Below, one piece after another: positions 4,051-32,127 of a stretch of DNA of 64,000 nucleotides (the stretch's first letter is position 1; every line of letters begins with the position of its first letter). Origin of the DNA: a virus; IMG/VR virus record IMGVR_UViG_3300042503_001836, positions 54,554 through 118,553 of that record; one strand, written 5' to 3'. A program made the position numbers and the translations under genes. Below the pieces are notes generated by a model. That model was not told where the DNA came from. It saw only the letters and a list, made by a program, of their open reading frames with translations, and did no database searches.

Positions 4051-4078
4051 AATTTTCCCACAAAGATAATTAAAAAAT

Positions 4079-4533
4079 CTAAGGTATGTGTGCTGAATAT
4101 AAAGAAACATGATCCACGATATATCCATTAGCAGCACTAGCAATTCCAAAAGAATGAGTGTGAGTATCTTGCGCTCCTAGTCCGTAGATACTCGCATTAA
4201 CTGCTGTGCCATTAGCAATGGTAGTCCTAATCGGTGTAAGAAACATAGGCACTCTAAAAGGAAAATAGAGGAATAGATTTCCTACTTCCGGAGACTGTAA
4301 TCCATTAGTTATCAACTGAGCGTATCTCTGACACTTAGCTAATTCAACAGCGTAATCATCAGAAGTAAAAGCAGTAGCACTACTGCCTTCTTCTAGTTTT
4401 GGGCGTGAGATTACCCATGTTCCTGAAGTTTGCGCTCCTACCCTTAGTCTTACTTCCAATCCATTTGATACCTCAGCAGGTAATGTTACTGTAGCTGTAT
4501 ATCTTGTAAGTGTGGAGTTAACAGTCCATGTAA
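4079..4533 (-). pseudogene. Truncated tail-fibre copy
   Basis: The reading frame encodes the C-terminal part of a tail fibre ([20 protein letters not shown], then a receptor-region-like end finishing in SAHIP), nearly identical to the matching part of the two intact fibres at 4989-6308 and 6779-7771. At about 4533 the fibre sequence jumps directly to the leader found before the fibre at 4989-6308 (AAACC ATG). The ATG therefore opens out of frame and meets a TAA after 16 codons. The N-terminal half has been deleted. A TTG at 4459 could restart a 126-residue product, but without trimer-forming N-terminus it is unlikely to work. Confidence 0.7.
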
Positions 4534-4555
4534 CATGGTTTACAAGCTACCTCAA

Positions 4556-4984: not shown

Positions 4985-4988
4985 AAGT

Positions 4989-6308: not shown

Positions 6309-6327
6309 GGTTTAGAAACTACCTCAA

Positions 6328-6753: not shown

Positions 6754-6778
6754 ATTTTTGTATTAAAGAAATTGTGAT

Positions 6779-8640: not shown

Positions 8641-8642
8641 TT

Positions 8643-10976: not shown

Positions 10977-10981
10977 GTTCC

Positions 10982-11587
10982 TTATGCACTATAGCTAGAT
11001 GTGATTTCGACAGATAAAACTTGAAAGTTTTTAACTAAAACCTCACCAAATACTAAAGGTATAGGCGTACCTTCTTTAGTCATATATCCTGGACTTTGGA
11101 AGAAAGAGGATCTTCTATCATCCATGCTTATTTCACTTGGATCATTATTCATATGTGTGCTAGGATTACCAAAAAGCACAGATTGTAACAACCCTGTTGC
11201 ACCTGATATAATCAACCCCCAGCCTAAATTCACAGCTATAGCACCAACGCCTGTAATAGTTGTCAACGCTATCCCAATCCCAATCATGGCAACGCTAGTG
11301 ATGAATTTCCCAACCTCTCCAGATCCTTGGATAGCTGGTGTGATTTCTACAGTTAACCCTGTAATAGGTAATAGTAATTCTGGTGAATTTTCATCAACTT
11401 CTCTTTCCCAATTAGGTGCTTTAATAATAATTGAATAAACCCAATCAGTACCTAATACATAATGTTTGAAGTTTTCAAAATAACAACATAGAAAGTTGAT
11501 TGTTTCTCTAACCGTATGCACATCAGCTTGTAATTCTGGTAAAAATTCCTTACCTAAAGCACCATTTAATTTAATAGTAGTTAGCAT
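10982..11587 (-). CDS. I: gpI-like tail tip assembly protein
   Basis: 201 residues. The N-terminal half has a ubiquitin-like opening (MLTTIKLNGALGKEF) and the C-terminal half contains a long glycine-rich hydrophobic stretch (residues about 105-145) plus SPGYMTKEGTPIPLVFGEV, matching the lambda gpI family. It acts in assembly of the tail tip and does not end up as a major part of it. It overlaps the gpK stop by 7 bp and is followed at 5 bp by gpJ. Confidence 0.8.
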   Translation of the reverse strand: MLTTIKLNGALGKEFLPELQADVHTVRETINFLCCYFENFKHYVLGTDWVYSIIIKAPNWEREVDENSPELLLPITGLTVEITPAIQGSGEVGKFITSVAMIGIGIALTTITGVGAIAVNLGWGLIISGATGLLQSVLFGNPSTHMNNDPSEISMDDRRSSFFQSPGYMTKEGTPIPLVFGEVLVKNFQVLSVEITSSYSA

Positions 11588-12339
11588 ATTTCTTTTAATC
11601 TCCCATGTAAAAGTGTTCTTTTACGCCAATAATCAGCATACTGCTCTATTCTTGACACTGATGAATCTGATGGGGAATGAAGAATAATATTTTCTTCTGG
11701 TTTGACCATAACTATAGCATGATTTACTTTCCTACCACCTTTTAAAGCCACACCGAATACATCATATTTTTGTGGTTGTGTTCCTAACGGCAGCAAGTTA
11801 AATTTGTCCATACTCCAAGGACAGTCATAATCTGTTGGCGGAAAGTTTTCCAATTGAGTTCTATGAAATTCCCCAATATCCACATTTAAAGTTCCCAATA
11901 GATACCTTCGGACAATTGCAAAACAGTCAGACCGTCCCCAATGAAATCTAGTGTTTAAATAAAATTCTAAATCTTGTGGTTTGTAGTCTTTTTTCTCTAG
12001 TGGAAACGGATCTGGATTGTTAGCCTCATAATAGTCCCACACATCAAAACCAGAATGATAAAGAATAATAGGTTTTTGGCTTTGATGAGCAAGTTCAATA
12101 TCTGTATAGGTAAAATACCCCGACTGACCTTCTTTATGGTGTGTATGCCAAATAGCCGTAATATCTGAGTAGTTAAATTCCGCTAAGTCAGTAGCGGCTA
12201 TTGTAAAATGATTTGTTGGATCATCATGAATGTTATTTAAAACAATGGCATTACCATCGATAACAATGCCACAGATTTCCTTATCCGTCCCTAAAGCAGC
12301 CGTTTTAATTTGTAATTTAATTAAGTCTGGTATTAGCAT
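11581..12339 (-). CDS. K: gpK-like tail tip protein, JAMM plus NlpC/P60 peptidase
   Basis: 252 residues with two domains. Residues 1-115 form a JAB/MPN metalloprotease domain; the zinc motif is visible as HTHHKEGQSGYFTYTD (H-x-H, then S and D). Residues 120-250 are an NlpC/P60 cysteine peptidase with catalytic Cys in WGRSDCFAIVR and His in NHAIVMV. Lambda gpK has this same pair. It works on the tail tip and probably on cell-wall peptides at entry. It starts the leftward K-I-J run, 80 bp from the divergent portal gene, behind a promoter at 12364-12392. Confidence 0.88.
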   Translation of the reverse strand: MLIPDLIKLQIKTAALGTDKEICGIVIDGNAIVLNNIHDDPTNHFTIAATDLAEFNYSDITAIWHTHHKEGQSGYFTYTDIELAHQSQKPIILYHSGFDVWDYYEANNPDPFPLEKKDYKPQDLEFYLNTRFHWGRSDCFAIVRRYLLGTLNVDIGEFHRTQLENFPPTDYDCPWSMDKFNLLPLGTQPQKYDVFGVALKGGRKVNHAIVMVKPEENIILHSPSDSSVSRIEQYADYWRKRTLLHGRLKEIC

Positions 12340-14768: not shown

Positions 14769-17700
14769 TTATCTGTTGTAAGGATTACCACGATTAATAG
14801 AACCGCCTACTCTCATTTCCCGACGAATACCATCTGATACCATCGCTTGTACAGCCTGTGACAGTCTGTAGGTATCTACTTCAGAATCACTGCCAACCTC
14901 AACACTTACAGGAACATTTATAGTTGTCGTATTGCCAATCTTAGATGCCATACTACCGTTACCACCTGCACCTACAACACCACCATTAGCAAACCCAGCC
15001 ACACCGCTTTGCAACTTATTCCAAATAGCGGTTTCTTTGTGGTTAAGAACCCGTTCACCTTCAGAAGCAACTATTAAATGAGGCTTACGTCCAGTAATAG
15101 ATCGCTCCTTATTCATTACCCCAACTATCCCGCCATCAGCAAACATTGGTAAAGTAGCAAAACCAAAATCTGTAGGAATAGCATCAAATAATCCAGGCGT
15201 AGGATTAAATCCCATAGAATTGGCATTAAACACAGAACCAGAGAGAATATCAAAAGTGCCACCAAGAAGACTGCTAAAAATATCACCACCCGCGTCCATT
15301 GCTGTGTTTGCCACAGTTTGACTACTTAATGTTAAAGCAGCTTGCATCAACATTTGCCCAGCTTGGTTTAATGTCATACCTGCCAGGTTGAGTCCATTAG
15401 CACCAACACTCAAATCAGCTAAACCTTTAACAGCATTTATACCATCAGTTGGTTTTTCATCTTTCTTTTTATTTCCAAACAATCCCTCAGTCCAACCAAA
15501 TAGAGCATCAGTCATGCGTTTAGATGCCATATCAGCTAGAGGATCAAGGAAACCTTTCATAATAGAGTTAAATAGATCACTTACGGACTCGCCAAACCCT
15601 TTTGTACTTAATAGGAACTCCTTAAACCCGCCCCTAAAGCTACTTGTGACACCTTTAACCACAGTTCCTAACTCAGAGAATTGTAGTTTAATAGCGTCTA
15701 GTTTTGCTTCATTAGTCAGCTTGAGATTTTCCCGTAAAGTATTAATCTGTTCATTAGTTAACTTATTAGCTTCCGTAGCTTCAGCGTTCTTTCTAATAAA
15801 ATCATCTAACTGAAGCGTAGCCTTAGCAAAATCCATCTGTTGATTATTAATAGCCAATTGCTTATCAATCTTTTCAGCACGGAAATCAAGACCATAGGCT
15901 TTGAGTAGAGAACTTCTAGACTCTTGTACACCTTTAAATGAATCCTGGATAAATTGCACTCTTTCTAATAATCTAGAAGGAATATTTGCATTTTCAGCAA
16001 TACGATCATTTTTTTGTTTTAACTCAATATTTTGTTTATTGCGTTCAAATTCTTCCTTAACGTAGTCCCTTCTTTTCTTAGCTTCTTCAGAAGAAATAGA
16101 CCGACTATTTTCTTCATTTGTAATAGCATTAAGTTTTTCTTTATATTCATTCTCGGTATTTAATAAAGCTAGGTTTGCTTCTAAATCAGCAGTTCTAGCA
16201 GACCTTGGATCAAGTGGGTTTAATTGCTGTAATAGTTTACGCTGTTCAACTTGTTTTTGGAGTAAACTAATTCGGAGTTTTTCAGTTTGTAATGTAACTC
16301 CTGTTCGTCTAGATATTTCCTCTCTATTAAATTGTTCTACTCTTGCTTCAAGTATTTTAGGAGTATTTTGATTTAATTCAGCTAATGCTTTTTTAGCTTG
16401 TATATTCTGAAGTACAGTAGTTTTAAAGACCTCGTTATTTGTATTAATTGCGTTAAGTGCCTGTTCAGGACTGTCTGGAAATTTCTCTAAAGATGCAACA
16501 AAAGCAGCTTTTAGTAATTTTTCATTGTCAATTACACCTTGAGTATCACGAACTGTTTTTTCTAACGCTTCTCTCTTTTTCTCTAATGAACGAATAAGCT
16601 CTTGATAGCCAATCAAGAATCGTTCAACATTACTCATGTTGGGAGACAAGCCCTCTCTTATAGTTTTCCAAATATCTAAATCAGTATCTTTCATACTGCT
16701 TTGAATTTGAAACATAGATTCAGTAGTTTGTCTAAGTAAACGATATAACCCTAACAATTGCTGTGTTCTGTCTGTTAATAGCTGGGACTCAGTATTCATA
16801 GAGTTGGCTGCATTTTGTCCATCGGCTGTATTGAATTTAAGATTTGTTGCATCTGTAACATTTGATTGCATTTCGTCAGGAGTAAGAGTCCCGCCAGTAT
16901 TAACTAGTTGATTCAACCTATTAAGATTTTCTTGATAAGTCTTTAAGAAATTACCATGTTGTCCTTGGGGTGTTCCTTGTCCTTTATATGCACTTCTATT
17001 CTTACCCGACTGGATACTGGCATAATGTAGTGCAAGTTTATTTAATACAGATGTATCTACTTGACCTTTCAAAACTTGATCTAAAACACCTCTAGATTTT
17101 AAGGAATGAATAAAATACAAATCTTGCATACCCGGGCTAAAGCTTGGTTGATCCTGACCTTGATAGTCTGTCAACTTAAACATATCCGGCATGGCATTTT
17201 TACCAAACTGTTTTTTAGCCGCTTGGATAGATGCGTTAAAGTTCATCATCTGATAGCGTCCGGCTGCAGTGCTACTGTTGTTAATCCACTTAATCCAAGT
17301 TGGTTTCCTACCAGTTCCCACATAGGGATGTTTAGAGAAATCAGTAACATTCTCACCACCAATCGTTAGACCATAGCCAAAGTTCCTAGTATTTTTTCTA
17401 AAATCAGAACCCTCAGCATTAGCCACAGCATTAGCCAAAGCTAAAATATACTTATTCTTACGCAGTTCATAAAGTTGTTTACCAAGTGGGGTTAGTTTTG
17501 CATACTCTTCAGGGCTTAAGTCATTACCACCTTGAGATATTCCTGAAGAATTTTTAATACCTATCGTACCAGGTACAGGCGGTAATATGGGAACGGGTTG
17601 TCTTTTTGGCAACGGCTTAACCTGTGATGCGACATTCTTAGCTATTTCTACCGCACCAACAGCTTGATCAAAGACAAAACTCTTAATACCCGTACTCTTT

Positions 17701-20700
17701 AATGCTTGCTTAAATTTATTAAATTCTGCTTCGTTAGCAAATACAATACAACCACTAGAGCCAGGATCAACAAGTCTGTCCTTATCAATGTGGAAACCAA
17801 TAGCGGTTCGTTCTGTTTTAAAATCAGGTTCAAGTCTTATAAACTCATTCCCCATTTTAGCCTTATTGCCGCTAGGAGTAGTTTTACCAAGTCTATAACT
17901 ACCAAACTCTACAGGTTGTTTAGACCCTGCTTTTGTTTCACCTGCACCACCAAATATTTGAGTATCCGCCTTACCTGAATTAACAATAAATCTATCAACT
18001 ATCTTTCCTTGTTTAATGACGGCTAACTGGATTTTTTCTAATCCAAATTCATCTTTTTGTCCCAATCGCTGCATCCTGATTACAGATTCACCCTTGGACT
18101 GACTGGCAGGAGTAACAGTATTAGCTTTAGTTTTAGCAGTTGCCGGAGGTTGGGAAGCGATCGCACCATAATCACCCTTAGCTAAATTAGCAAGGAACAC
18201 TTGAGGGTTAATATAGCGTCCGTTTGCCTTAACCCCAAAATCTAGATGATGTCCTAATACATTACCCAGTTTTTGCCCAGCTTGTACTTGTACAGGTTTG
18301 CTCAAGTCACCAAGAGTATTTTTGATACTATTAAGTGCTAAGTGTCCATACTCTATAGTTATCTTTGTACCCGATGGTAATATACTATTAACAAACACAG
18401 CAGCATCTTGTCCGCCCCATTTTTGCAATTTAGCTACACCTGCAAGACTAGCAATAACTTCTGCACCAGCACCACCCTTAACACGACTGTCAAAATCAAC
18501 CTTATTGTGTAAACGTCCTGGACGTTGACCCATGACACTTTGTCCAAAGGTGGGTTTATAGTTAATCAAATCTTGGATAGTCGTATTTTTAATAGGTGAT
18601 GTAAATTGATTTGCTACTGTAGGTATAACCGTTGGTGCTGGTGTTGCTGATGCTGCATCCTGTGTTGTAGGTGGCGTTATAGCTGACGATACAGCCGATG
18701 TTATACCACCAAACACACGACCTACAGTGTTTAGTAAATTACCTGCCCAGTCAGAAGAGTTATTTTCATTAGTGACTTGATTTAACTTACCTAAAGTTAC
18801 ATCTAACTTAGTTCCTACGCCCGTCACAGTATCACCAAGTCCCTTAAAGGCATCGTTAAGACCACTAGTAGCTATTACTGCGTCTTGTCCTAAAGACTTC
18901 ACAACCTCTTGCACATCAGAGTTTATACCAACAACACTACCCTGAACTGTTCTAAGTTGATCGTCAAACTCTTTAATTTTATCCTCATCAAAAGGAACTA
19001 TCTTACCTGGTAGACTTCGTTGTAATTCACTAGCACGAAGCTTAATGTCATCAATATTATTTTGATAATCAATTTCCTGTTTTTTAGCATCTAACTGACG
19101 TTTTTCCATCTCCGTAGTTTGAGAGATAATATTAATAAGCCCCTCAATAAATTGAGTGTAAATGTTATCGCCAGCACCTATCAAAGCTTCTCTAAGCTTG
19201 TTTTGCATCCTAGATCCTTCTAGGGTTTTTTGTGCTTTTTGGAACTCTATGCTTACCGCTTGCGCTTCCCTAACAGAAGCTCTATAGTATTCAGCTACTT
19301 GTTTAGTCTGGTCAATCAAAGCCTGTTTCATATCACGCTGGGCTTTGGCCATTTCTTGTGAGTTTTGAGCTAATGCCTCTCTATCTTTAGTAATATCGCC
19401 TCTTAACTTATCAAATTCCGCTTGTGCTTCATTTAAGTTAGTACCACCAGCCGCAATAACTTGGCTTATCTTGTCTAAGGCAGCTTGATCACTATTAATC
19501 TTTTCAGTTAATAAAGTGCGTTGGCTGCTTAAATCAGCTAGTTGAATATTTGATAATTCCGGTGCTATTTGTTGCGCTGTTCCCGATGATGCGTAAATTT
19601 TAGCCTGACTTAAATTAGACTTAATCCTATTAGCAGATGTAGCACGCTCAAATCTAGTATTTGCATCCTTAACAGCATTGGTAGCTTGGGTATATAAAGC
19701 CTCTTCCATAGGTCGGACATCAAACGGTTTTGCCCCAGCAATCATGTTTTTAAGCTGGTCAATTCGTGCTTGAGTCTTTTGGACAGCAGCAGGAATTAAA
19801 TTTCCTGTAACACCTTCAACCGCGCCTAGCTGTAACTTTTGCTTATATTCTTCTTCCTGTTTAAGCATCCGTTCCAACATAGGCAACGGTGATCCAAAGC
19901 TATTAACTAGATCCTCACGTTTTTTGTAAAGTTGTTGAATTAATTGCTTAACCTCACCTTGTTCCTTACGAACCTTATCACTCGGTAACGCCTTGTTTAG
20001 TTCTACACTTCGTTTAGTTGCTGCCTCTAGTTGTTTGTCAATATTTTTAATCTCTTTAAAATCAAACGCACGTTGTATAGAGGTTTTGATAATGATCTCC
20101 TGATTTTTCCTTTGATTTTCTAATGCTTGTAATTCCTCTTTAGCTTTTTCATATTCTTCTTTAATTTTTTTATCCCGTCTATTAAAGAAAGTAGGTACAG
20201 TCAACTTTTCAAATTCAGCTTTCTTTTGCGGAATTTTTTTATCAAGATCCTCCATAATTTTTCTATTTTCTAGACGATCACCTACTTCAAACTCAGAGGA
20301 TTTGATAGCCAAAGTATTCCGCATCTGTTTAGACTGATTTTCTAAGTTTTTAAAATCAGCACTGTTTTGTATATCTTTAATTTCTTGAGGACTAGCACCT
20401 CTAGCTTTTGCATCGGCTAATACAGCTAATCTTCTATTGTTGTTATCCTCAATTTGTCTGTTAAGATTTGATATATCTTTGTTAGCATTAAATTTTTGTT
20501 GCTGTTCTATTGTCAGTGGTTTGATATCAGCTACAAAGTCACTAGGTTTACCAGTAAATCCTTGACTAGACGCAAACTCTTTTAAGTTTTGGATATTTTT
20601 TTCTTGATCCTCAAAATATTTGATAACCTGTTGTTGCGCGTTAGTTAATCGGGCGTTTGGATCTTCTGTATCAAAATAGCTTTTTATTCCTTTGTTTTCT

Positions 20701-23700
20701 GGTTTGTTAAGAAACTCTTTTTGTTTGTCTGTTAGTTTAGGTGCAAATAAGTCAAGAGCCTTAGTGGCTAATGTTATAGCAGCAATGAAAGCAACAACCG
20801 CAGTAAGAATAATAGTAAGAGGGTTAGCAAAAAGAGGTGCTAAAAGCATAGCTAGTTTACCTATAAGAGGTACTGCCATGAGTGGCCCGGATGCACCTGA
20901 AGCAATCAAGGCAGCATTGGAAGCCATAGCGGTAGACGCAGCCACAGAAGCCGCAGTAGTAGCTGAAGCTAAACCTACATTAGCAGCATACGCAGCACCA
21001 GCACCAGCCACACCTAAAGCACCTACACCAAGAAAATCCATTACTGGATTAGCTTGACCTTTATTTCTTGCCTTGATTGCATCATCCCATTTAAAGTCAC
21101 CACCACCCCAGAAGCTTCTAATGTCAAGCTGTACGCCTTTAGAAGGTAATGTGTCAGCTAGTGATCCGCCTAACTTTTTAACATTGTTAGTTGCTTTATC
21201 AAAGGAGTCCGCCGTTTTTTGAACATTGGCTCTAATCTCAGTCAAACCGTTATTTAGTTCCTTAGTTGCTTCCTTGAGTGAATCACCCATAGGATTGCTA
21301 AAGTCACCTTTAGAGAACATCAAGATAGCAAAAGCGACCCCTATATGAGTTAATGCTTTTCCTAAGAATCCTAATGAAGCCGCAAACAGTTTATTTCTTG
21401 CAATTCCGGCATCCATAGCTGCATTAGCCGCACCCATTGAAGTTAGCATTAATTCACTAGCAGCTTTCATTGTAGTCATGAAGCCTATAAAAGCCTTTGC
21501 TGAACTACTGAACATTCCTGCGGCTGCACCAACTACACTCGTGATCATTGGCCAAAGAGCCATTTTTACTAAAGCCGTAGCTTGTTCAAACATGAACACC
21601 ATTGCTAGTAGTTCTACAACTCCTGGAGGAATGACTTTAAAAAACCCACTAAATACACCTTTAAGCCCGTCAATTATATTACCCGCTTGTTCAGCACCTT
21701 GTACTAAGCTGCCAAACATAGATGAAAAGCTAACATTACCATCACTCATAGACCGCATAACAGAATCTATAGTGCTAAAAAGTGCTACAACAAGATTACC
21801 TACACCACTATTCATGTTAGAAATTAGGTCTTTTTCTGCACCTAACCAGTTGTCAGCAACATCCGCAGTAATGCCAACAATTAAAGGCATCATGTTAGTA
21901 GCCATAACTGAAAAAGTTGCCATTAATAGGTGTTGCAAAGATCCAAGTAAAGTAACCAAGGGTTTAAACTTAGTCATAATTACTGTTAACCCTATTGCTA
22001 TGGTTGCAGCAAAACCAATGGCAAAAGATTGACCTAAAGGTATTAATGCTCCAAGACTCTTACTGAACAAAGATAAGCCATCAGCAAAAGTGCTAACAAA
22101 GAAACCTAGAGTTCCGCCTAACTTATCAGTAAATATTGTGGTTATTTCAAAACCCACATTACCTAGTTTATTTAATGCAACAACTAGCCCACCCGCTTGA
22201 CTAGCAGCCGAATTACCATAATCTTGTTTGAGTACCTTAGCAACTTTAGGTAAGATATCCTGAGATAACACACTACCAGATGAGATGAGAGCGTTCATTT
22301 CTGGTACTGACACACCCATAGCCTTAGCAAATACACCCATAGCTGGCGGGAATTTTTCGCCTAATTGCTGTCTTAATTCTTCCATTGACAGCTTACCTTT
22401 AGCCAGAATTTGAGTATAAGCCATGAAGACTAAACTTGCATCTTGACCAGTAATACCTAACGCGCTTAGAGATGCTGTTATACCTTCAAACAAATCTCTG
22501 ACACCTTGTCCTTCCATCTTACTATCTCTAGCTGCAATAGCTAATTGAGAATAAGAATTAGCCGCTACTTCAGAAGGAACATTCATTTTATTAGCAATGT
22601 CTTTGGCATACTTAAATTCTGCCTCGCCACCTGCCTTAGAGCCGCCTAAGAAAGTAAACCTTCTTTGTAATACTTCTACTCGCTGAATACCGTCCATTAA
22701 TCTAGCGACATGGGGTGAAACCATACTAACAGCCGCACCTATACCACCAATAATCGGAGCTAGAGGTAAGAATAAGGGACTTAAGGAAGCAAACAAAGAT
22801 GTTACAGGTGCTAAAGTTGCAGCAATAGACCCCATAAATTGCAACACATTCGGGAAAGTTGCGTCAGCTTCTTTTGGATCGCTAAACAGAACTTTTTTCA
22901 CACCAGATCCCATCTGGTTGTACATTTCCTTAAATTGATCCTGGGTAGCTACAGTACCCCGACTCATGCGCTTAAATATGACTCCAACAGCATCACCAAA
23001 GTTAGCTTGACCTAGTGCTTTTTTAGCATTGTATTCCAGGTCGTCTTTAGCGTTAGCAAGGTTACGTACAGAGTCTTTAAAACCTTCGGCTATAGATTTA
23101 CCCATATCAAAGCCTTTTTCCTTAAACTTAGCTTGTAAGCCAGTTAAGGATGCCATCAAACCCGCGGTAGCCGTATCTAAAAGTTTAGGATCGATGTTTT
23201 TAAGTTGCTGTGAAGACATACCAGCTTTTCTCAAGCCTTCTAGTAATAAGCCTTTCATAGCTTCTTGATCATTACCAGCATAGGCTTCGGTAAGTCTGCC
23301 AACAAAACCAGTAGAACGTGGAGCATTAACCAAACTTTGACGGAAAGTATCTAACCCACCAGAATCTCGCATCTGTTGGAAAGTTTTAAAAGCTACGCCA
23401 CGCTCACTTAAAACCTTTGCTGTAAGTGAGTCTAATTTACCTTGTGCTTTATCATCACCTAAAACTGCTCTAGAACGTTCAATATCACCCATTGCTTGCA
23501 TAAGTTTACGCTCATTATTGGTTGCCGCAATAGGATTATTTAGAATGTTTTGGCGTGCTGCGTCTAACTGTGCATCAGTCATAGCATCACGGGTAGTTTT
23601 ATTAACTCCACGTCTGCGTAACGCTTGTTTTGTCATAGCATCTAGCACTTGTGGAGATATAGGACTGAACTGCGATACCCCTTCTAAAGCCTTTTCTACT

Positions 23701-26700
23701 TTGTTTCTTTGAGTACCAAGAGAGTTAATTGTATTTACTATTGTTCCTGATTGTTGTTTTAGTTTATTCCCTGTTAATCCTTGTATAACAGAAGTAGGAA
23801 TCATAGGAATATTGAGATTTTCTAAAACACTGTCTATGGCAGTATTACCTAAATTCTCAATTAATTGTTGACTCGCTTGAGTACCTTTAGCATTACCTAA
23901 TCCTGCTTTTTTGCGATTAGCCGATGTTTGTTCTTGTAAAACTTGTTCAACAGTAGGAGCTTGGTTTCTAGGATTTGATCTTGATGATTGATCCAAACCT
24001 AAGATCCCACCAAAAGTATTCATGAACATTCCAAACATACCTAGTCCCATTGATGCAAGACCACCACCACCAACAATTGATGGTAAAGGGAACATGCTAG
24101 GGACAGGATTCATCATCTGGGATATGCCACCTAGTATCCCGTGTGTTTTTTGTCCAGATAACGAAGATAAATCTATTCTGGTAACAGAACTTAGTAATTT
24201 TGTTAAGAAACCACCGGGTTTTAAGACATCATTATTAAGTAAGTTCTTAATAATTGCGTTACCCAAGCCTAAAGTTAAGCCACCAAGTACAGGTATCAGT
24301 GGTTTTAGCATGGGTACAAGTTGCAATGTCTTGGGTATGAATTTCATAAACCAAGGCATTATAGAGCGAGTTTGAGACAACAGACCTTGATAAAGTGGCT
24401 GTTTTAAAGTATCAGCAAGAGAGAATAACGCCGCGTTTACAGCATTACGCATCACCTGGCCTAATGAAGCATAACCAGAAAGTGTGCTTTGACGGACACT
24501 ATCACTAACAGCAGTAAATAAATTAGTAATTAAGTCTTTACCCAGACTCAAATACTGACTCATCATTGTTGGTGGTACTGGAGGTATGGGCGGTGTAGGG
24601 GGTGTGGGTGGTGATGGCGGAGATGGCGGTGTGGGTGGTGATGGGGGTACTGGAGGTACTGGAGGTACAGGAGGTACTGGAGGTACAGGTCTAGGAGGAA
24701 CAGGAGGTACAGGAGGTCTAGGAGGAACAGGAGGTCTAGGAGGTACAGGAGGTACAGGTCTAGGAGCAGTAGTCCAAGGATCTGGAATTTGTGAATAACT
24801 ATCAAATAACCGGGACATATTACCAGCCATTAATGCATTTAAGTTAATACGTATGGGTGGGTAGGGCTGTGTAGCTTGTGTTCTAGTTGATAAGTGAGGT
24901 CTTGTTTGCTGAGTTTGCTGAACTGTACTAGCTAAATTAGTTCTTTGCTGTCCTAAGTTTCTATTTGTTGCAGGCACATTTTCAGTATTCTGTGCTTCAT
25001 AGTCTTCAGGTAGAGAATTAACAGCTCGCTTAGACTGTTGTAATATACTTGATATCTGTGGTTTAAAATAATTAGATAAGCCAAGGTATGCCGCTATTGA
25101 TTTACCTTCTATTACACCTTCTGCTAAATCTTGGGCAACATTAAGATCCTTTGATTTGTTATACTTACCTTCTTTGTAACCTTTAGCAATTGTTTGATGA
25201 TATGCGTCTATATTAGCCGCATAGTTAGCTACAAGAGCTTTTTGAGATTCTGTGGCTGTCTTACTTTCATTAACTGTTTTAACCATTAAATCAGCAATTC
25301 TCTTGTTAGCTAAGACTAAAGCAGCCACAGCACCATCTTCAAAACCCTCACCAAAATCTAGACCCATTTCTAGCATAACTTTTGATGGGGATGCAATCCC
25401 AAATATTCTTTTAATCGTAGATAATATACCTGTAGCAAACTTAGTAACTATCCCTAAAACGCCACCATTTGCAGACAAGAATCCTTGTCCAAAAGAAGTT
25501 ATTAAATTAATACCAATGTCTTTTAAACTTCCGCCTTTGCTAAATGCAGATTTGGCACTGTTAAATAAATTGCCTAAAATAGTATCACTGCCAAAGTCTT
25601 TTTTAACACCTGATAATAGATTAGATAGAGGGTTTGCAGGTTGATCAAACTCTTCTAGATAAGATTTAATTTCTGGGTGTTGTGTAAACGCATTATAGTC
25701 AGCATTTGAGTTAAAAGCAGTGCGTGCTTTTTCTTGTAACTGTTTAAGTTTTTCAGATGAAACCGTGTGTGATTGAATGTAAGGTTTTCCACCAATAATG
25801 GAATGTGCCTTATCAGATAATTGAAATTCTTTTTGTTGTGGATGACCACTCAATGCAAAAAGAGTATTATTATCATTGTCTACTTTTCCATAACCCTTGT
25901 ACTTGTCTAGATACTTCAAGCCCATGTTTTGAGCTAACTTAGGATGTTTCAATAAGAAATTATTTAATTTGGTAGCAATACCGAAGGGTGTACTAAACCC
26001 AGTCATTAAATTTGTATCGTGCGTCCAGTCATAGACATCGCTTATCTGTAACCCACCCTCTTTATTGCGTCCATAATTAAAACCGCCTAAAGTGTAATGT
26101 AAATTTTTAAATCCGGGTATTTGACTAACTTCATTGCCTACAGTACCACTACCCACTTCCCAATTTGAAGGAATTTTAGTTGTTTTATTTTTTGAAGCAA
26201 AGTCAAGCATAGACCTGTACATTACTGCTAGTTCTGCCTCTCTAGCAGTACGCCCCTGCAATTTATGAACATCAGTATTTCCTTGATAATAAGCACCTAA
26301 ATGTTTAACTGGTTCTGATAGTTTATTTCCTAGTATGCCAGTATTTCCCAGTGCAACCATAGATGCGCCAAGTATTGATCCAAAAGTTGTCTTTTTCTCA
26401 TGTTTATTGCTTTGCTCATAAACACCCTTAGTAGCTTTAGCACTACCATCAACGGCATTTTCAACAATGGAATCATATGTATTAATGTTCTCAGAATTAA
26501 ATAAATCTAATTCTTTAATTCCCGTATCCACAGCTTTCGCTAATAACTGACTAGCACCTGATACATCAACAACACCTTGTTTAATACCAATAGCCAGACC
26601 TGACGCAATCATTACACCCAAGGCAATCATCACCTTTGAAGGTGAACTAATGCCCATGTTTTGTTTAATCTGATTTTGAATAGCGTCACCAGTAGTATTT

Positions 26701-29700
26701 ATAGCTTTAGAAGATAAGGCAACCGTGCTTAATATACCTTGGCTCAAACCTTCGTTAGTCTGTTTACCGATCTTAATGAAATTATTTAAGGGTGAGTGAA
26801 GTTTTGCACCTAGTGACCCCACAACATTAGCTATTCCTTGAGGTGCGCCATAATCTGCAACACTAGAAGCTATAGCATCTTTCACTGGTAAACCCTGACC
26901 AACTTTAGATTTAGATTTTCTATATAAATCTAAAGGTACAGACAAAGTATCAACAACAGCATCAACACCATAACCAGCAGTTGCAAAATTAGAATTTGCA
27001 CCAGTACCTAAACCTGTAGGTACAACCTTCATGACACTGCTAATGGCTCTTACTATTTCACTCTTACTGAGTTTAAGGTCTTTCAAATTGTCATTTAAAA
27101 CACTCTTAAACGTAGACATATAATCAAGGGAAGTATCAGCTTGTAACTTCGCCTTAGTTTGTCCATGAGCTTGAGTAACAGCTTTAGTAATAGCACTATT
27201 TCTTAATAATGCGGTCATACCAGCTTGAGCAGCATCAACGGCACTGACAGTCATCGGATTAGCACCAAGACCTAACGCGCCAGCTTTAGCAATATTTATA
27301 GTGTGATCAAAAGCCGCTCTAGGTGTAGTCAAAGTTTTATCAGCAACAATGCTATTTACAAAATCTTTAGCAGACCCACCTACAGACTGAAATAAAGTTT
27401 CACTAGGGTTTGCTGCATGCCGTTCTCCAACCTTACCTAGTATTTTCAATCCCGTATCCGTAGCACTTAGACCAGCACTTCCATACGTGCTAATTGATGT
27501 AAGTCCAGGTATTACACTGGTTGCACCAAGAGCTGGATCAGCAAAGGTTTTTACTGCACCTACAATATCAGTTACAGTTGATACCATTTGTCTTGCACCT
27601 TGAGCAACCTTGCTATTACCTTTTTGCATTCCCAAAAACAAACCCGAAGTTATCATCAGACCCATCTCAAACATCAACCAAGATGGTGACTGGATCTGCA
27701 TTTTGGTTTGGACTACTTTAATAAAGTCATCGAGCATAACACGGGCAGCATTGGACACCCCACCTGCACCATGTTTAATCCCGTTTTGCAAACCTTTAGG
27801 AATTTCTACTCCATGCTGTTGTGCTAACTCTGTATAACCCTTTAATTGCTGATCAAATAGTTTTTTGTCAGCGAGGTTTAACTTGCCTTCTAAATGTCCC
27901 GCGTTTTTTCTATTATTTTCTAGAGGTGATTTAGCTCTGCCGTGAATCCCGCTTAATTCACTATTAATATCTTTGCTAAAGCCAGCATCCTCACCCATTT
28001 TTACATATTTATCAACAGTAGCAACGGCTTCTTTAGAGCGACTAATAAAAGTAACAACTTCAGCTCTTGCTGATTTAAGTTCTTCATGCGTACCTACTGC
28101 GGTAGCTTGTTTAACTTTCGCCTGTATTCTCTTATATTCATCTGCAAAATATTTTTTAATAGATGTTAATGCTTTATCAATCTCATCTAAGGAAGTCTGA
28201 GCATATTTTTTTGTATTAGCTGTTTTATCAGAAGAAACAGGCGGTAAAGGTATTAATTTATTTTCGGCTGCCGTAGCATCTTTATAGCCTTGGGATATAT
28301 CAATATTTTTAACTATTTCAGATTGAATTGTTTGGAAAAGTGGCTTAATCTGCTCAGGAATATTAACAGGAATTGGTTCTAATTCCCGTTTTTTAGCTGG
28401 TGGGGGTAATGGTACTTTATTTTCCTTAGCTGGTGGCTGCTTAGGTAAAGGTGCTGAATCTTTCCAAGGATCTGAAATAACTTCAGAAACAAAAGGTTTA
28501 CTGGTTTTAGATTTTGATACAGCTTGAGATTCAGATTTCATACCTATGGAGGCATCACTCAAAGCTTTAGCAGCATTTTTTAAATCGGCTGCGGCTTCTT
28601 TAAGTACATCTGAAGAAGATTTAACAACAGGTGTAACAGGCTTATTTAATACACCTTTACTTAAAAAATCTTTAATGATAGGTGCTGTATTTGGTAATAA
28701 TTTATCAAAGGCAATCTCCACAACTTTTTTAGATTCAGAAGCCAAACCTTGACCTATAAACGTACTTGTAGAATCTTTTTTACCACTTTCAGCCGCATCA
28801 AAGAACCAGCCTACAGCATTTTGAACACCAGATGATGAGTTTTGAGTAACTGAACTGGCCGATTTTCTAACTTGTCTAATAGTCGCTAATTTAGCCCTTT
28901 GAGCAATACTCTCAACACTAATATTAATACTGTCAGAAAATGCCGTATTTATTTCTGACACTGTACTAGAAATAACGCTGGGATTATCTTTAGCTATATT
29001 TTCTTTAAATGATTTAACTCCAGACTTACTACTTTTTTTAGTCTTAATTCCTACACCAAAAGAATTTAAAAAACTATCTGCCGCCTTTTCACCAACATCA
29101 CTCATATCAATGTTAGCGTTTTTCTTAATAGATTGGCGCATCCCTTTAGATATTTCTGAACCAAAACCCATTGAGATTCCTTCAAGAAACCCAGTCAATA
29201 AATCTTTACCTGGTTTTAAAATAATACTAACTGCTTGGTCTATTTGACTATTACCCGTAATTTCTTTAATACCTCCAAACATTGTTTTTAATTCTTCCAC
29301 TACTTCTTGAGTGTTAGCATTAACAACACTGTCACTAGATTTTACGCCTTTAGATATTGCATCAATAAAAGCATTTTCAATACTGCTAGAAACACCACTG
29401 ATAGCACTAAGAATACCTTTTTCAATTCCTTCTGCTATCGATTGAGAAACTTCTTGCTTAGAAGAATCTGTAATCTTAATATCTAGATTTTCTTCTGTTT
29501 CAATTATGTATCGCTTACTAGATAAATTACCCAATCTTTGTTCTAATTCATCTAATTTAGTAACATCAGTATTAACAGCTATGGGGTTGCTATCAAAATA
29601 TTTATTAACTTCCTTAAGGTGCTGTACTTTAGTATGTAAATGTTTATTTAAATCAACAAGTTGATCGTCGTCAACATTAACAACAATCGGATTATTATTA

Positions 29701-29921
29701 AAATATTTATTAACTTCTTTAAGGTGTTGTACTTTAAGATTTAGATGTTTATTTAAGTCAGCTAAACTATCATCGTCAACATTAATTTCTAAATTAATTT
29801 TATCAAAACTTTTTTCAATACTTGCAGCCGCTTCATAGGCTTTCTTTTTAGCCTGTTCTAGAGATTTTTCTAATTGTGCAGTATCAGCACACAATTCAAC
29901 AATTAACTCACCTAAATTCAT
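14769..29921 (-). CDS. H: Giant tail tape measure protein (5050 residues)
   Basis: The start is set by GAGGAG 8 bp before the ATG. Order of parts: coiled coil; two 35-residue repeats (48-117); three SPSxxM...G motifs (about 744, 1094, 1510) typical of tape measures; proline-rich linker (about 1715-1777); hydrophobic stretches (1850-1950, 2370-2420, 2600-3060); tape measure domain (about 2440-2580); coiled coils; M23-like domain (about 3790-3910; HNKVDFD and HLDFGV, the second metal His being Asp); L,D-transpeptidase-like domain (about 3940-4090; SSGCIVF); lysozyme-like domain (about 4145-4330; STAAGRYQM); coiled coil; glycine-rich end. Length sets tail length, here near 0.75 micrometre by the usual 1.5 angstrom per residue. 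It lies directly after the tail chaperones, as in lambda. Confidence 0.95.
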   Translation of the reverse strand: MNLGELIVELCADTAQLEKSLEQAKKKAYEAAASIEKSFDKINLEINVDDDSLADLNKHLNLKVQHLKEVNKYFNNNPIVVNVDDDQLVDLNKHLHTKVQHLKEVNKYFDSNPIAVNTDVTKLDELEQRLGNLSSKRYIIETEENLDIKITDSSKQEVSQSIAEGIEKGILSAISGVSSSIENAFIDAISKGVKSSDSVVNANTQEVVEELKTMFGGIKEITGNSQIDQAVSIILKPGKDLLTGFLEGISMGFGSEISKGMRQSIKKNANIDMSDVGEKAADSFLNSFGVGIKTKKSSKSGVKSFKENIAKDNPSVISSTVSEINTAFSDSINISVESIAQRAKLATIRQVRKSASSVTQNSSSGVQNAVGWFFDAAESGKKDSTSTFIGQGLASESKKVVEIAFDKLLPNTAPIIKDFLSKGVLNKPVTPVVKSSSDVLKEAAADLKNAAKALSDASIGMKSESQAVSKSKTSKPFVSEVISDPWKDSAPLPKQPPAKENKVPLPPPAKKRELEPIPVNIPEQIKPLFQTIQSEIVKNIDISQGYKDATAAENKLIPLPPVSSDKTANTKKYAQTSLDEIDKALTSIKKYFADEYKRIQAKVKQATAVGTHEELKSARAEVVTFISRSKEAVATVDKYVKMGEDAGFSKDINSELSGIHGRAKSPLENNRKNAGHLEGKLNLADKKLFDQQLKGYTELAQQHGVEIPKGLQNGIKHGAGGVSNAARVMLDDFIKVVQTKMQIQSPSWLMFEMGLMITSGLFLGMQKGNSKVAQGARQMVSTVTDIVGAVKTFADPALGATSVIPGLTSISTYGSAGLSATDTGLKILGKVGERHAANPSETLFQSVGGSAKDFVNSIVADKTLTTPRAAFDHTINIAKAGALGLGANPMTVSAVDAAQAGMTALLRNSAITKAVTQAHGQTKAKLQADTSLDYMSTFKSVLNDNLKDLKLSKSEIVRAISSVMKVVPTGLGTGANSNFATAGYGVDAVVDTLSVPLDLYRKSKSKVGQGLPVKDAIASSVADYGAPQGIANVVGSLGAKLHSPLNNFIKIGKQTNEGLSQGILSTVALSSKAINTTGDAIQNQIKQNMGISSPSKVMIALGVMIASGLAIGIKQGVVDVSGASQLLAKAVDTGIKELDLFNSENINTYDSIVENAVDGSAKATKGVYEQSNKHEKKTTFGSILGASMVALGNTGILGNKLSEPVKHLGAYYQGNTDVHKLQGRTAREAELAVMYRSMLDFASKNKTTKIPSNWEVGSGTVGNEVSQIPGFKNLHYTLGGFNYGRNKEGGLQISDVYDWTHDTNLMTGFSTPFGIATKLNNFLLKHPKLAQNMGLKYLDKYKGYGKVDNDNNTLFALSGHPQQKEFQLSDKAHSIIGGKPYIQSHTVSSEKLKQLQEKARTAFNSNADYNAFTQHPEIKSYLEEFDQPANPLSNLLSGVKKDFGSDTILGNLFNSAKSAFSKGGSLKDIGINLITSFGQGFLSANGGVLGIVTKFATGILSTIKRIFGIASPSKVMLEMGLDFGEGFEDGAVAALVLANKRIADLMVKTVNESKTATESQKALVANYAANIDAYHQTIAKGYKEGKYNKSKDLNVAQDLAEGVIEGKSIAAYLGLSNYFKPQISSILQQSKRAVNSLPEDYEAQNTENVPATNRNLGQQRTNLASTVQQTQQTRPHLSTRTQATQPYPPIRINLNALMAGNMSRLFDSYSQIPDPWTTAPRPVPPVPPRPPVPPRPPVPPVPPRPVPPVPPVPPVPPVPPSPPTPPSPPSPPTPPTPPIPPVPPTMMSQYLSLGKDLITNLFTAVSDSVRQSTLSGYASLGQVMRNAVNAALFSLADTLKQPLYQGLLSQTRSIMPWFMKFIPKTLQLVPMLKPLIPVLGGLTLGLGNAIIKNLLNNDVLKPGGFLTKLLSSVTRIDLSSLSGQKTHGILGGISQMMNPVPSMFPLPSIVGGGGLASMGLGMFGMFMNTFGGILGLDQSSRSNPRNQAPTVEQVLQEQTSANRKKAGLGNAKGTQASQQLIENLGNTAIDSVLENLNIPMIPTSVIQGLTGNKLKQQSGTIVNTINSLGTQRNKVEKALEGVSQFSPISPQVLDAMTKQALRRRGVNKTTRDAMTDAQLDAARQNILNNPIAATNNERKLMQAMGDIERSRAVLGDDKAQGKLDSLTAKVLSERGVAFKTFQQMRDSGGLDTFRQSLVNAPRSTGFVGRLTEAYAGNDQEAMKGLLLEGLRKAGMSSQQLKNIDPKLLDTATAGLMASLTGLQAKFKEKGFDMGKSIAEGFKDSVRNLANAKDDLEYNAKKALGQANFGDAVGVIFKRMSRGTVATQDQFKEMYNQMGSGVKKVLFSDPKEADATFPNVLQFMGSIAATLAPVTSLFASLSPLFLPLAPIIGGIGAAVSMVSPHVARLMDGIQRVEVLQRRFTFLGGSKAGGEAEFKYAKDIANKMNVPSEVAANSYSQLAIAARDSKMEGQGVRDLFEGITASLSALGITGQDASLVFMAYTQILAKGKLSMEELRQQLGEKFPPAMGVFAKAMGVSVPEMNALISSGSVLSQDILPKVAKVLKQDYGNSAASQAGGLVVALNKLGNVGFEITTIFTDKLGGTLGFFVSTFADGLSLFSKSLGALIPLGQSFAIGFAATIAIGLTVIMTKFKPLVTLLGSLQHLLMATFSVMATNMMPLIVGITADVADNWLGAEKDLISNMNSGVGNLVVALFSTIDSVMRSMSDGNVSFSSMFGSLVQGAEQAGNIIDGLKGVFSGFFKVIPPGVVELLAMVFMFEQATALVKMALWPMITSVVGAAAGMFSSSAKAFIGFMTTMKAASELMLTSMGAANAAMDAGIARNKLFAASLGFLGKALTHIGVAFAILMFSKGDFSNPMGDSLKEATKELNNGLTEIRANVQKTADSFDKATNNVKKLGGSLADTLPSKGVQLDIRSFWGGGDFKWDDAIKARNKGQANPVMDFLGVGALGVAGAGAAYAANVGLASATTAASVAASTAMASNAALIASGASGPLMAVPLIGKLAMLLAPLFANPLTIILTAVVAFIAAITLATKALDLFAPKLTDKQKEFLNKPENKGIKSYFDTEDPNARLTNAQQQVIKYFEDQEKNIQNLKEFASSQGFTGKPSDFVADIKPLTIEQQQKFNANKDISNLNRQIEDNNNRRLAVLADAKARGASPQEIKDIQNSADFKNLENQSKQMRNTLAIKSSEFEVGDRLENRKIMEDLDKKIPQKKAEFEKLTVPTFFNRRDKKIKEEYEKAKEELQALENQRKNQEIIIKTSIQRAFDFKEIKNIDKQLEAATKRSVELNKALPSDKVRKEQGEVKQLIQQLYKKREDLVNSFGSPLPMLERMLKQEEEYKQKLQLGAVEGVTGNLIPAAVQKTQARIDQLKNMIAGAKPFDVRPMEEALYTQATNAVKDANTRFERATSANRIKSNLSQAKIYASSGTAQQIAPELSNIQLADLSSQRTLLTEKINSDQAALDKISQVIAAGGTNLNEAQAEFDKLRGDITKDREALAQNSQEMAKAQRDMKQALIDQTKQVAEYYRASVREAQAVSIEFQKAQKTLEGSRMQNKLREALIGAGDNIYTQFIEGLINIISQTTEMEKRQLDAKKQEIDYQNNIDDIKLRASELQRSLPGKIVPFDEDKIKEFDDQLRTVQGSVVGINSDVQEVVKSLGQDAVIATSGLNDAFKGLGDTVTGVGTKLDVTLGKLNQVTNENNSSDWAGNLLNTVGRVFGGITSAVSSAITPPTTQDAASATPAPTVIPTVANQFTSPIKNTTIQDLINYKPTFGQSVMGQRPGRLHNKVDFDSRVKGGAGAEVIASLAGVAKLQKWGGQDAAVFVNSILPSGTKITIEYGHLALNSIKNTLGDLSKPVQVQAGQKLGNVLGHHLDFGVKANGRYINPQVFLANLAKGDYGAIASQPPATAKTKANTVTPASQSKGESVIRMQRLGQKDEFGLEKIQLAVIKQGKIVDRFIVNSGKADTQIFGGAGETKAGSKQPVEFGSYRLGKTTPSGNKAKMGNEFIRLEPDFKTERTAIGFHIDKDRLVDPGSSGCIVFANEAEFNKFKQALKSTGIKSFVFDQAVGAVEIAKNVASQVKPLPKRQPVPILPPVPGTIGIKNSSGISQGGNDLSPEEYAKLTPLGKQLYELRKNKYILALANAVANAEGSDFRKNTRNFGYGLTIGGENVTDFSKHPYVGTGRKPTWIKWINNSSTAAGRYQMMNFNASIQAAKKQFGKNAMPDMFKLTDYQGQDQPSFSPGMQDLYFIHSLKSRGVLDQVLKGQVDTSVLNKLALHYASIQSGKNRSAYKGQGTPQGQHGNFLKTYQENLNRLNQLVNTGGTLTPDEMQSNVTDATNLKFNTADGQNAANSMNTESQLLTDRTQQLLGLYRLLRQTTESMFQIQSSMKDTDLDIWKTIREGLSPNMSNVERFLIGYQELIRSLEKKREALEKTVRDTQGVIDNEKLLKAAFVASLEKFPDSPEQALNAINTNNEVFKTTVLQNIQAKKALAELNQNTPKILEARVEQFNREEISRRTGVTLQTEKLRISLLQKQVEQRKLLQQLNPLDPRSARTADLEANLALLNTENEYKEKLNAITNEENSRSISSEEAKKRRDYVKEEFERNKQNIELKQKNDRIAENANIPSRLLERVQFIQDSFKGVQESRSSLLKAYGLDFRAEKIDKQLAINNQQMDFAKATLQLDDFIRKNAEATEANKLTNEQINTLRENLKLTNEAKLDAIKLQFSELGTVVKGVTSSFRGGFKEFLLSTKGFGESVSDLFNSIMKGFLDPLADMASKRMTDALFGWTEGLFGNKKKDEKPTDGINAVKGLADLSVGANGLNLAGMTLNQAGQMLMQAALTLSSQTVANTAMDAGGDIFSSLLGGTFDILSGSVFNANSMGFNPTPGLFDAIPTDFGFATLPMFADGGIVGVMNKERSITGRKPHLIVASEGERVLNHKETAIWNKLQSGVAGFANGGVVGAGGNGSMASKIGNTTTINVPVSVEVGSDSEVDTYRLSQAVQAMVSDGIRREMRVGGSINRGNPYNR
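24590..24775 (-). repeat. Short tandem repeats encoding a proline-rich linker
   Basis: Reiterated 9-bp units of the ACCTCCTGT type on the minus strand encode (P-x-P-P) repeats inside the tape measure gene. They are likely to vary in copy number by slippage. The plus strand reads as poly-glycine, which is not a gene. Confidence 0.85.
29571..29780 (-). repeat. Two 105-bp tandem repeats in the tape measure gene
   Basis: Residues 48-82 and 83-117 are two copies of a 35-residue unit (VDDD-L-DLNKHL---KVQHL, then KEVNKYF--NPI-VN), with high DNA identity. Such units can lengthen or shorten the tail by recombination. Confidence 0.85.
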
Positions 29922-29947: not shown

Positions 29948-29985
29948 GATTGTAAATTCGTAATTAAAATTCGTAATTTACAATC
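29948..29985 (-). terminator. Hairpin and T-run between tail chaperone and tape measure genes
   Basis: Perfect 11-bp arms (GATTGTAAATT / AATTTACAATC) are followed by T7 on the minus strand. It overlaps the stop codon of the frameshift chaperone, so translation into the stop could influence whether transcription proceeds into the 15-kb tape measure gene. Confidence 0.7.
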
Positions 29986-30382
29986 AAGGTAATAGCAGAC
30001 TCAACGCGGACAGAACAGGAGCAGACAAACCATTAGTTTTAATTAACTCGGTAATAATCGCTTCTGTCCGTTCACTGACTTTCCGATTATTCTCTTTAAT
30101 TTCGTCTGCAAAGGGCAACAAGTCCACAAAATCAATACTCGGATCTGTTTCTTTTTTGAACCCGTTAAACAGTCCAGACCATCCGATAGCGTGAACCCTT
30201 GCCTCAATGTTTGACTGCTCTTTCCTGTTCTTTTCGAGTGCTTCAATACACTCAAAAACTATATGAATAGGCTGATCGAGAAAGGTATCCCAATCAGCAA
30301 ATCTAGGGTCTAATATCCTGTAAGATTGGATTCTCCAGTAGATGCTACTCCAGTCAATTGGACTGGTTGCTGTTGCTCCCCC
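29984..30382 (-). CDS. Tail assembly chaperone, frameshift extension (gpT-like)
   Basis: An open frame of about 130 codons in the -1 frame relative to the gene upstream, with no ATG, GTG or TTG start: it opens after a TAA near 30398 and runs through IDWSSIYWRIQSYRILDPRF to a TGA at 29984-29986. The position between tail tube and tape measure, the -1 register and the missing start are the signature of lambda gpG/gpGT. The best slip site is the five-G run at 30378-30382, in the codons CAG GGG GAG. The fusion would be about 385 residues. The GA rather than GG at the second slip codon makes it imperfect, so the exact site is inferred. Confidence 0.7.
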   Translation of the reverse strand, partial: GGATATSPIDWSSIYWRIQSYRILDPRFADWDTFLDQPIHIVFECIEALEKNRKEQSNIEARVHAIGWSGLFNGFKKETDPSIDFVDLLPFADEIKENNRKVSERTEAIITELIKTNGLSAPVLSALSLLLP

Positions 30383-31143
30383 TGGACAGCCGCATTAGTT
30401 ACAGGTGCTTCTACTTGCCAACGACTGCGCTCATTTTCATAGAATTTGTAAATAGCCCCTACAAATTCATTACTACAACCTTTAGTATCTTCTTCTGTCC
30501 AATCTTCAGTACCAACCTGATATTTTTTCTCAGCTTTGTTGTACAAGAAACCAGTCACAGCTTCCAGATTTTCAGACACAGGCAATACATTAATATTCAG
30601 ATAATCTTGCTCATTAGCAGGTTCATGATTACCGTTAACAACTACTAAGCAATCACCAAATTTAATTACCTGTCTATCTTTCAGATAAAAGTTAACAGGC
30701 GCAATTTTAATCTGAGTAGAATTAAATGCTACAGGTACTAACAATTCCACAGGGAAAGCTACCCGTTTTTGGATTAATAAAGTAGCTATAGCAATAGAAA
30801 CAGAAGCACTATCAATGGCACTTAAAGAATTTAACTCAGTAAAATCTTCAATGTAGTCATAAATCACCGCAGAATTATCAACCTCAACACCACTATCAGC
30901 GTTGCGAGTTGGAGACAATAATTCTTGAGCCTCAGCAATAGTTACACCACGATCTACAGAGATTTTTTTAACTAATTTAGAAGCAATAATCGCTGCTTTT
31001 TGACGTTTAGCGTCAATCATATCCACAGCACTAGCTTCGCCAACAGTTAAAGATCCGCGCTTTTCTAAATAGATAATTCCTGATAGATCATCACCAACTG
31101 GTACAATTTCGTATCTTGGTTTTTTATTAATTACTGGACGCAT
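30310..31143 (-). CDS. Tail assembly chaperone (gpG-like)
   Basis: 277 residues from the ATG at 31143 (MRPVINKKPRYEIVPVG); the longer upstream frame runs inside the neighbour and is rejected. Acidic and mostly helical, with a glutamine/glycine tail (GEQQQPVQLTGVASTGE). It lies directly before the tape measure gene and overlaps the -1 frame at 29984-30382, so a minority of ribosomes would make a longer product. Both forms would coat the tape measure during tail assembly. It is about twice as long as lambda gpG. Confidence 0.7.
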   Translation of the reverse strand: MRPVINKKPRYEIVPVGDDLSGIIYLEKRGSLTVGEASAVDMIDAKRQKAAIIASKLVKKISVDRGVTIAEAQELLSPTRNADSGVEVDNSAVIYDYIEDFTELNSLSAIDSASVSIAIATLLIQKRVAFPVELLVPVAFNSTQIKIAPVNFYLKDRQVIKFGDCLVVVNGNHEPANEQDYLNINVLPVSENLEAVTGFLYNKAEKKYQVGTEDWTEEDTKGCSNEFVGAIYKFYENERSRWQVEAPVTNAAVQGEQQQPVQLTGVASTGESNLTGY

Positions 31144-31369
31144 ATTCAATCTCCAAATTATCATCTGAGTCTGCAAAAACTTGATAGGTTGCCACCATCT
31201 GAACTGAATCAGGGATTTTAATTTTGTAGGTAGATTTGTCATTAGAAACAATAATTTCTCCAGATAAACCACCCCTAAAAACTGCCGCACCACAAAGCAA
31301 CCTATCTTGAGCAATGCGGCAGTTGATTAAGATAGCCAGTAAACCTGTACTATCTTTCAAAACTTTCAT
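31127..31369 (-). CDS. Hypothetical protein between tail tube and tail chaperone
   Basis: 80 residues with a beta-rich pattern (GEIIVSNDKSTYKIKIPDSV) and no recognised motif. It overlaps the upstream gene by one base and the downstream gene by 17 bp, so all three are translationally coupled. Being inside the tail assembly run suggests a small tail or assembly role. Confidence 0.65.
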   Translation of the reverse strand: MKVLKDSTGLLAILINCRIAQDRLLCGAAVFRGGLSGEIIVSNDKSTYKIKIPDSVQMVATYQVFADSDDNLEIEYASSN

Positions 31370-32127
31370 TAGAGGTTATAGGATGGGAAACCATTAGCTA
31401 AACCACCAGAAGCATAATAGGCAGGTGTCCAAATCCAATCGTCTTGGAACTCTAAAGTAAATGTATACTTCATTACTTCCATTGGTGTACCTGTCAAGTT
31501 TAAAGCGGTAGATTTAGCAGCACCTTCAAATCTAGATCCGTTAGGATAGGTAGCGATAGCATACAATTCACGGTTCATGTACACAGGATCAAAGTGTGTA
31601 CGTTTAATAAATTGTTCTAAGGCAATATCACCTACATACTCAATACCTTCTACAGATATTTCCCGTTTAGAACGGATAATAGCAGAGCTAGTACCAGAAC
31701 CGGATTGAGAATGGGTGGTATCAACAACAGTAGGAGAAGGCTGTAACCCAAAGCTGGTAATTCCCAATAATGGGAACATATCTTGCACTAAACGAGATGT
31801 AGAATTGACGGCAATGGGATCTAACAGAGGTGCAATACTCAAAGTAACGGCAGTTGTACCGTTGAGAGTTGCGTTAGCTAACACTAAAGCCTGTTGTCTG
31901 TTAAGAGGATTAGAAGGTGCAACAAAATTTAAAGAAGTACCCGCAGCAATTGTGTAAGTAACACCAGCAGTAGTAGCAACACTGAGAGTAGTAGCACCTT
32001 CAGCCGCACCAGATGGAGCGGTAATAGTTGCACTGGTAACACTCCGAGTATTTTCAGGTAGCAACTTCAAATCTAAAGTATAGTTTTGAAGAATTACAGT
32101 TTGTACGGGACGATTAGCAGTTGCCAT
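31369..32127 (-). CDS. Probable major tail tube protein
   Basis: 252 residues. Beta-rich, with an inserted immunoglobulin-like or decoration-type region (residues about 30-105) and a C-terminal half resembling tail tube proteins (KREISVEGIEYVGDIALEQF, YTFTLEFQDDWIWTP). Position before the tail chaperones matches lambda gpV. The neighbour at 32169-32780 is the other candidate for the tube, so the assignment is positional. Confidence 0.6.
   Translation of the reverse strand: MATANRPVQTVILQNYTLDLKLLPENTRSVTSATITAPSGAAEGATTLSVATTAGVTYTIAAGTSLNFVAPSNPLNRQQALVLANATLNGTTAVTLSIAPLLDPIAVNSTSRLVQDMFPLLGITSFGLQPSPTVVDTTHSQSGSGTSSAIIRSKREISVEGIEYVGDIALEQFIKRTHFDPVYMNRELYAIATYPNGSRFEGAAKSTALNLTGTPMEVMKYTFTLEFQDDWIWTPAYYASGGLANGFPSYNL

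Follow-up and report, generated by a model that had tools for sequence, protein, structure and literature searches.

The 64,000-nt stretch of DNA analyzed here (the window: positions 54,554-118,553, the right end, of a 118,553-bp IMG/VR virus record) encodes an uninterrupted tape measure protein (TMP) of 5,050 residues. The reading we favor, at a probability of roughly 55%, is that this is a giant intact ruler of two units in a siphovirus with a tail like that of phage CrV-01T, a variable N-terminal unit, part A, setting most of the length differences between relatives, and the C-terminal unit, part B, bearing a cassette of cell-wall enzyme-like modules. What is new is the two-part, exchangeable ruler of this family and the natural test that it offers.

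The gene has no internal stop and the window has no N. The same 15,153 bp are present with 0 mismatches in a second IMG/VR record (111,652 bp, with a different metagenome id), possibly from the same or a sister sample or from the same phage, and, because the bases are identical there, a local assembly error is unlikely. Comparison with a relative, G002, in 500-codon blocks gave dN/dS of 0.09-0.24 in eight blocks of ten; in one of the other two dS is saturated, and the block with the enzyme cassette has a value of 0.46. Judged by these comparisons the frame is a real gene under purifying selection, and the uninterrupted 15.2-kb gene that the initial annotation had placed in the tape measure position is borne out. 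Its naming as a TMP also holds. PF20155 (TMP_3) matches the uncut protein at 92.9 bits (E 1e-27), above the curated cut-off, and the protein cut in two at 39.2 and 25.4 bits; TIGR02675 (tape_meas_nterm) scores 43.1 bits, over its cut-off; several PHROG TMP families match, and the gene is downstream of that for the tube protein. On these matches the product is a tape measure protein. No RNA polymerase family matches it, and in place of the polymerase motif DFDGD the nearest sequence is DTDLD at residue 4412.

The TMP gene sits between tube and chaperone-like genes and the tip genes (3418-12339), with a portal gene intervening (Table). The product of the chaperone-like gene has no family match. 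The portal gene (Portal_Mu, 12419-14329), on the plus strand, interrupts the minus-strand tail operon, with the TMP gene on one side and the tail-tip genes on the other. Between the chaperone-like gene and the TMP gene, 29984-30255 is a short coding-looking stretch that resembles part of CrV-01T gp033 and is without a clear start in frame. For the junction of tube and TMP genes a programmed frameshift was considered and rejected, the alignment showing a conserved overlapping ATG instead. Further along, neighboring tail-fiber-like genes at 4079-7771 have near-identical stretches in common. As the tube protein is CrV-related, tip proteins L, K, I and J are encoded and the tail sheath family PF04984 has no match in the 118.5-kb record, which may be incomplete, the best inference from the genes is that the tail is non-contractile and lambda-like.

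Relatives were found via the tube protein and the TMP core. The nearest cultured ones are two siphophages of Cylindrospermopsis raciborskii, CrV-01T (MH636380) and Cr-LKS4 (OQ625504), whose TMPs have the same N-terminus, SPS modules, TMP_3 core and C-terminus, with 32-45% identity to the window TMP in the longer matching stretches, and whose tube protein and tail-tip proteins J, K and L are homologous to those of the window. Their TMPs are shorter, at 4,416 and 2,987 residues respectively, and in CrV-01T three tandem genes for tube-protein paralogs (gp028-gp030, L050:11485-14119) all match the single tube protein of the window. CrV-01T gp018 (called major capsid in Cr-LKS4), gp015, ERF and dCTP deaminase have no match in the record, and its RNR has one of only 25%. 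Because the kinship lies in the tail module, the window phage is not placed in the same genus. Since these nearest cultured relatives infect C. raciborskii a cyanobacterial host is likely, probably of the filamentous freshwater type, though the similarity is one of tail genes and no match was found for several other CrV-01T genes. Searching bacterial genomes with the tube protein gave no hit, and with the TMP core one distant hit. The suggestion that induced particles be imaged has no basis, as no tyrosine integrase (PF00589) was found in the record.

Table. Coordinates in the window of the tape measure gene, its parts and the neighboring tail genes
Feature	Position	Strand	Remarks
Tape measure protein gene	14769..29921	-	5050 aa, ATG start, TAA stop
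Part A (aa 1-2399), variable N-terminal part	22725..29921	-	start MNLGELIVEL...; SPS modules; Pro-rich linker
105-bp repeat, 1.9 copies (about aa 46-110)	29591..29785	-	
SPS module 1 (aa 704-802)	27516..27812	-	
SPS module 2 (aa 1015-1140)	26502..26879	-	matches 683-808 of 865, the C-terminal end, of Geobacillus phage PK2.1 TMP
SPS module 3 (aa 1410-1565)	25227..25694	-	
Pro-rich low-complexity tract (PVPPRPPVPP...), 9/18-bp units	24589..24758	-	
Part B (aa 2400-5050), conserved tape-measure core to C-terminus	14772..22724	-	
Hydrophobic stretch, six candidate membrane segments (aa 2383-3053)	20763..22775	-	hydropathy only
TMP_3 (PF20155) tape-measure domain	22158..22679	-	profile match
TIGR02675 tape_meas_nterm	22254..22421	-	56-residue match
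M23-like endopeptidase module	18192..18539	-	below Pfam cut-off; HxxxD kept, HxH reads HLD
YkuD (L,D-transpeptidase)-like module	17730..18026	-	His and SSGC motif; below Pfam cut-off
Lambda-lysozyme (GH104-type) module	17085..17441	-	AEG and STAAGRYQ motifs
Conserved C-terminal segment (aa 4658-5050), likely tail-tip binding	14772..15950	-	
Major tail (tube) protein candidate	31369..32127	-	homologous to CrV tube protein
Conserved gene between tube and tape measure	30310..31140	-	tail assembly chaperone suggested by position
Lambda-like tail tip genes J, I, K	8643..12339	-	
Lambda-like minor tail protein L (start uncertain)	3418..4149	-	

The boundary between parts A and B was set at the start of the conserved TMP core. 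The SPS module, of which part A has three diverged copies, corresponds to the rear end (residues 669-819) of the 865-residue TMP of Geobacillus phage PK2.1, and the core in part B to residues 256-487 of the 1,273-residue TMP of a Polaribacter phage. On PHROG profile positions the A-part matches lie at 0.66-0.93 and the B-part matches at 0.13-0.48, keeping in mind that the profiles are not independent and that some of the B matches come from relatives. With rear-end modules thus preceding a front-half module, the order suggests that two tape measures have been joined head to tail. The start of part A is conserved in all 12 complete TMPs, and the N-terminal 100 residues of the family have no match among a small set of ordinary TMP starts. 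Part A is Gly/Pro-rich in places and need not be an extended helix. Structure prediction of the TMP core (20 sequences) gave a pLDDT of 44, too poor to show an extended helix.

The initial annotation predicted one of the longest known phage tails from this TMP. The size comparison that it called for gave several longer TMPs, so that within its family the length is not exceptional. Complete TMPs in the relatives found have 4,448, 4,505, 5,555, 5,772, 5,846, 6,123, 6,125, 6,228 and 6,235 residues, and with the two cultured phages included the family spans 2,987-6,235, the window TMP being mid-range. Among the 12 complete TMPs part A has 994-3,891 residues and part B 1,993-2,745, and differences in part A make up 86% of the length variance, though the 12 are related and so not independent. 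Internal repeats are present as had been claimed but are small (105 bp in 1.9 copies, Pro-rich units of 9/18 bp and the three diverged SPS modules), and it is from the N-terminal half, not mainly from short repeats, that the length variation in the family comes. Over 25.5 kb of structural genes, tube and tip included, CrV-01T and Cr-LKS4 have 99.0% identity, while DNA-level identity between their TMP genes is limited to the last 742 bp. Between two metagenome relatives, G004 and G008, identity is 86% across the final ~3,000 residues, and the front parts differ by ~1,660 residues. Both patterns point to the ruler having been exchanged, or its front part altered, with its partners unchanged.

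In the favored two-unit mechanism the TMP would be extended during assembly, its C-terminus placed at the lambda-like tip of the tail, and tube subunits would polymerize along it so that, as in lambda and TP901-1, the more residues the tube holds the longer the tail would be. The conserved unit B at the C-terminus (~2,500-2,650 residues) would be preceded by a fast-changing N-terminal unit A (~2,400 residues here), the source of most length differences between relatives, and if both units were stretched out inside the tube, a tail of about 0.65-0.76 µm would result.

For TP901-1 and lambda the published slope is 0.145-0.15 nm/residue; the TP901-1 value of 0.145 holds after subtraction of 127 end residues, and duplicating N-terminal sequence makes its tail proportionately longer (PMC5099701). 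Taking 937 residues, the whole-protein ratio for TP901-1 is 0.126. Microcystis phage Mic1, a freshwater cyanosiphophage used here for calibration, has a 400-nm tail and a TMP (ORF35) of 2,572 residues, or 0.156 nm/residue (PMC7156551), and its TMP does not match the core model of the window family. For CL131, 361 nm and 2,131 residues (only gp049 counted) give 0.169 (PMC6293099); its TMP was rejected as a close relative, with no match at 1e-4, and kept for calibration only. MinS1, like Mic1 and CL131 a cyanosiphophage, has 260 nm and 1,155 residues and gives 0.225 (PMC8876498), and the measured phages thus range over 0.126-0.225 nm/residue. The 1.5 angstrom per residue of the initial annotation agrees with the TP901-1 and lambda slope and falls short of the Mic1, CL131 and MinS1 ratios. 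Its yardstick was P23-45. The TMP of P23-45/P74-26 (gp96, 5,002 residues) is close to that of the window in total length and has a reported metallopeptidase and membrane segments, and in P23-45 residues 327-1124 are an RNA polymerase (PMC10770324). The comparison is confounded because the N-terminal ~1,100 residues hold this polymerase, whereas part A of the window protein matches tape-measure families. With a tail of more than 800 nm (PMC9022992), the apparent 0.16 nm/residue of P23-45 becomes about 0.21 without the first 1,124 residues.

The window tail would be 732-758 nm if all 5,050 residues count at 0.145-0.15 nm/residue, ~650-700 nm without the cassette and ~300-450 nm if only part B counts. 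The 0.7-0.8 µm proposed earlier follows if every residue counts and is one of several defensible values; because the protein is modular, ~540 of its residues being in enzyme modules and its N-terminal part being an extra one, any tail length between ~0.3 and ~0.86 µm could result. In the portions of the literature searched, no tail lengths were found for the window phage, CrV-01T or Cr-LKS4.

One alternative, which we hold to be rather unlikely, has part B alone as the ruler, with part A in the neck or capsid, folded up or removed before assembly. The resulting tail of ~0.3-0.45 µm would be ordinary for freshwater cyanosiphophages such as Mic1 and CL131 (the measured cyanosiphophage tails span 260-400 nm), part B is nearly constant in length while part A varies fourfold, the TMP_3 and tape_meas_nterm matches are at the start of B, and the folded N-terminal enzyme of P23-45 is a precedent. 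The proportionate effect of N-terminal duplication in TP901-1 argues the other way, as do the conserved start of part A in all twelve TMPs and the purifying selection on it. No better placed, in our estimation, is a single full-length ruler, all of whose residues count, with a tail of 0.73-0.86 µm, among the longest known, which is in essence the proposal of the initial annotation. It would accord with the published slope, the somewhat higher ratios of Mic1 and CL131 and the long tail of P23-45, but an extended helix is improbable for the enzyme modules and the Pro-rich linkers, and the module order is like that of two joined tape measures. It would also require tails of more than 0.9 µm for those relatives with TMPs of more than 6,000 residues, and none was found reported in the literature searched. 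That the frame is an assembly artefact or arose by chance may safely be dismissed: the source record is metagenome-derived, but an identical second record, the selection on the frame, many relatives with complete long frames and the long TMPs of the cultured phages all speak against it.

The part B cassette (approximately residues 3,795-4,335) comprises ~540 residues of predicted enzyme modules. Its lambda-lysozyme module matches PDB 3d3d/1am7 (E 4e-7) and also phage lysins, and the key motifs of the cassette recur in two homologs, the HxH of the M23-like module being HLD, with the last His missing, in all three. At the corresponding part of its TMP G002 has instead a phage-type lysozyme (PF00959, 103.5 bits); five other relatives, and CrV-01T and Cr-LKS4, have no recognized domain, and so no recognized wall enzyme, in the corresponding C-terminal part. 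Structure prediction of the cassette (3 sequences) gave a pLDDT of 35, too poor for use. In a sister phage, L122, a domain of the serine beta-lactamase/DD-peptidase fold (PF13354, 99 bits, at ~3700-4500) is inserted in the TMP between the YkuD-like and lysozyme modules. The TMP of mycobacteriophage TM4 bears a peptidoglycan hydrolase motif (PMC1796659). Like it, the window TMP has a recognized wall-enzyme domain, here as one of three enzyme-like modules in a row. The TM4 protein is much shorter and has one such motif. The replaceable M23-like, YkuD-like and lambda-lysozyme-like cassette probably helps the tail cross the peptidoglycan at DNA entry. Being exchangeable, it is also relevant to the way in which phages get through the wall of cyanobacteria.

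More tentatively, the window may represent a clade of freshwater, probably cyanobacterial, siphoviruses with a ruler fused from two TMPs, its front unit exchanged or altered to change tail length, the remainder of the particle being unchanged, and its rear unit with three or four cell-wall-active modules. If so, tails of 0.9 µm or more would be expected in the longest members, those with more than 6,200 residues. The relation between ruler and tail length is known from short rulers, those of lambda and TP901-1, and the best-known example of 3,000-6,200 residues is the one confounded by an RNA polymerase. The twofold range of TMP length, and the existence of two cultured phages with near-identical structural genes and different rulers, make the relation testable without engineering.

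Elsewhere in the window, the large terminase gene (39501-42215) carries a LAGLIDADG/Hint intein, and a plus-strand ORF at 38092-39495 has about five 132-bp repeats and looks like a propeller-type repeat protein. The genes at 53222-62560, which include HsdM- and HsdS-like genes, a gene for a PtuA/GajA-like AAA ATPase and a ResIII helicase gene, are possibly a phage-borne system of the type I restriction type.
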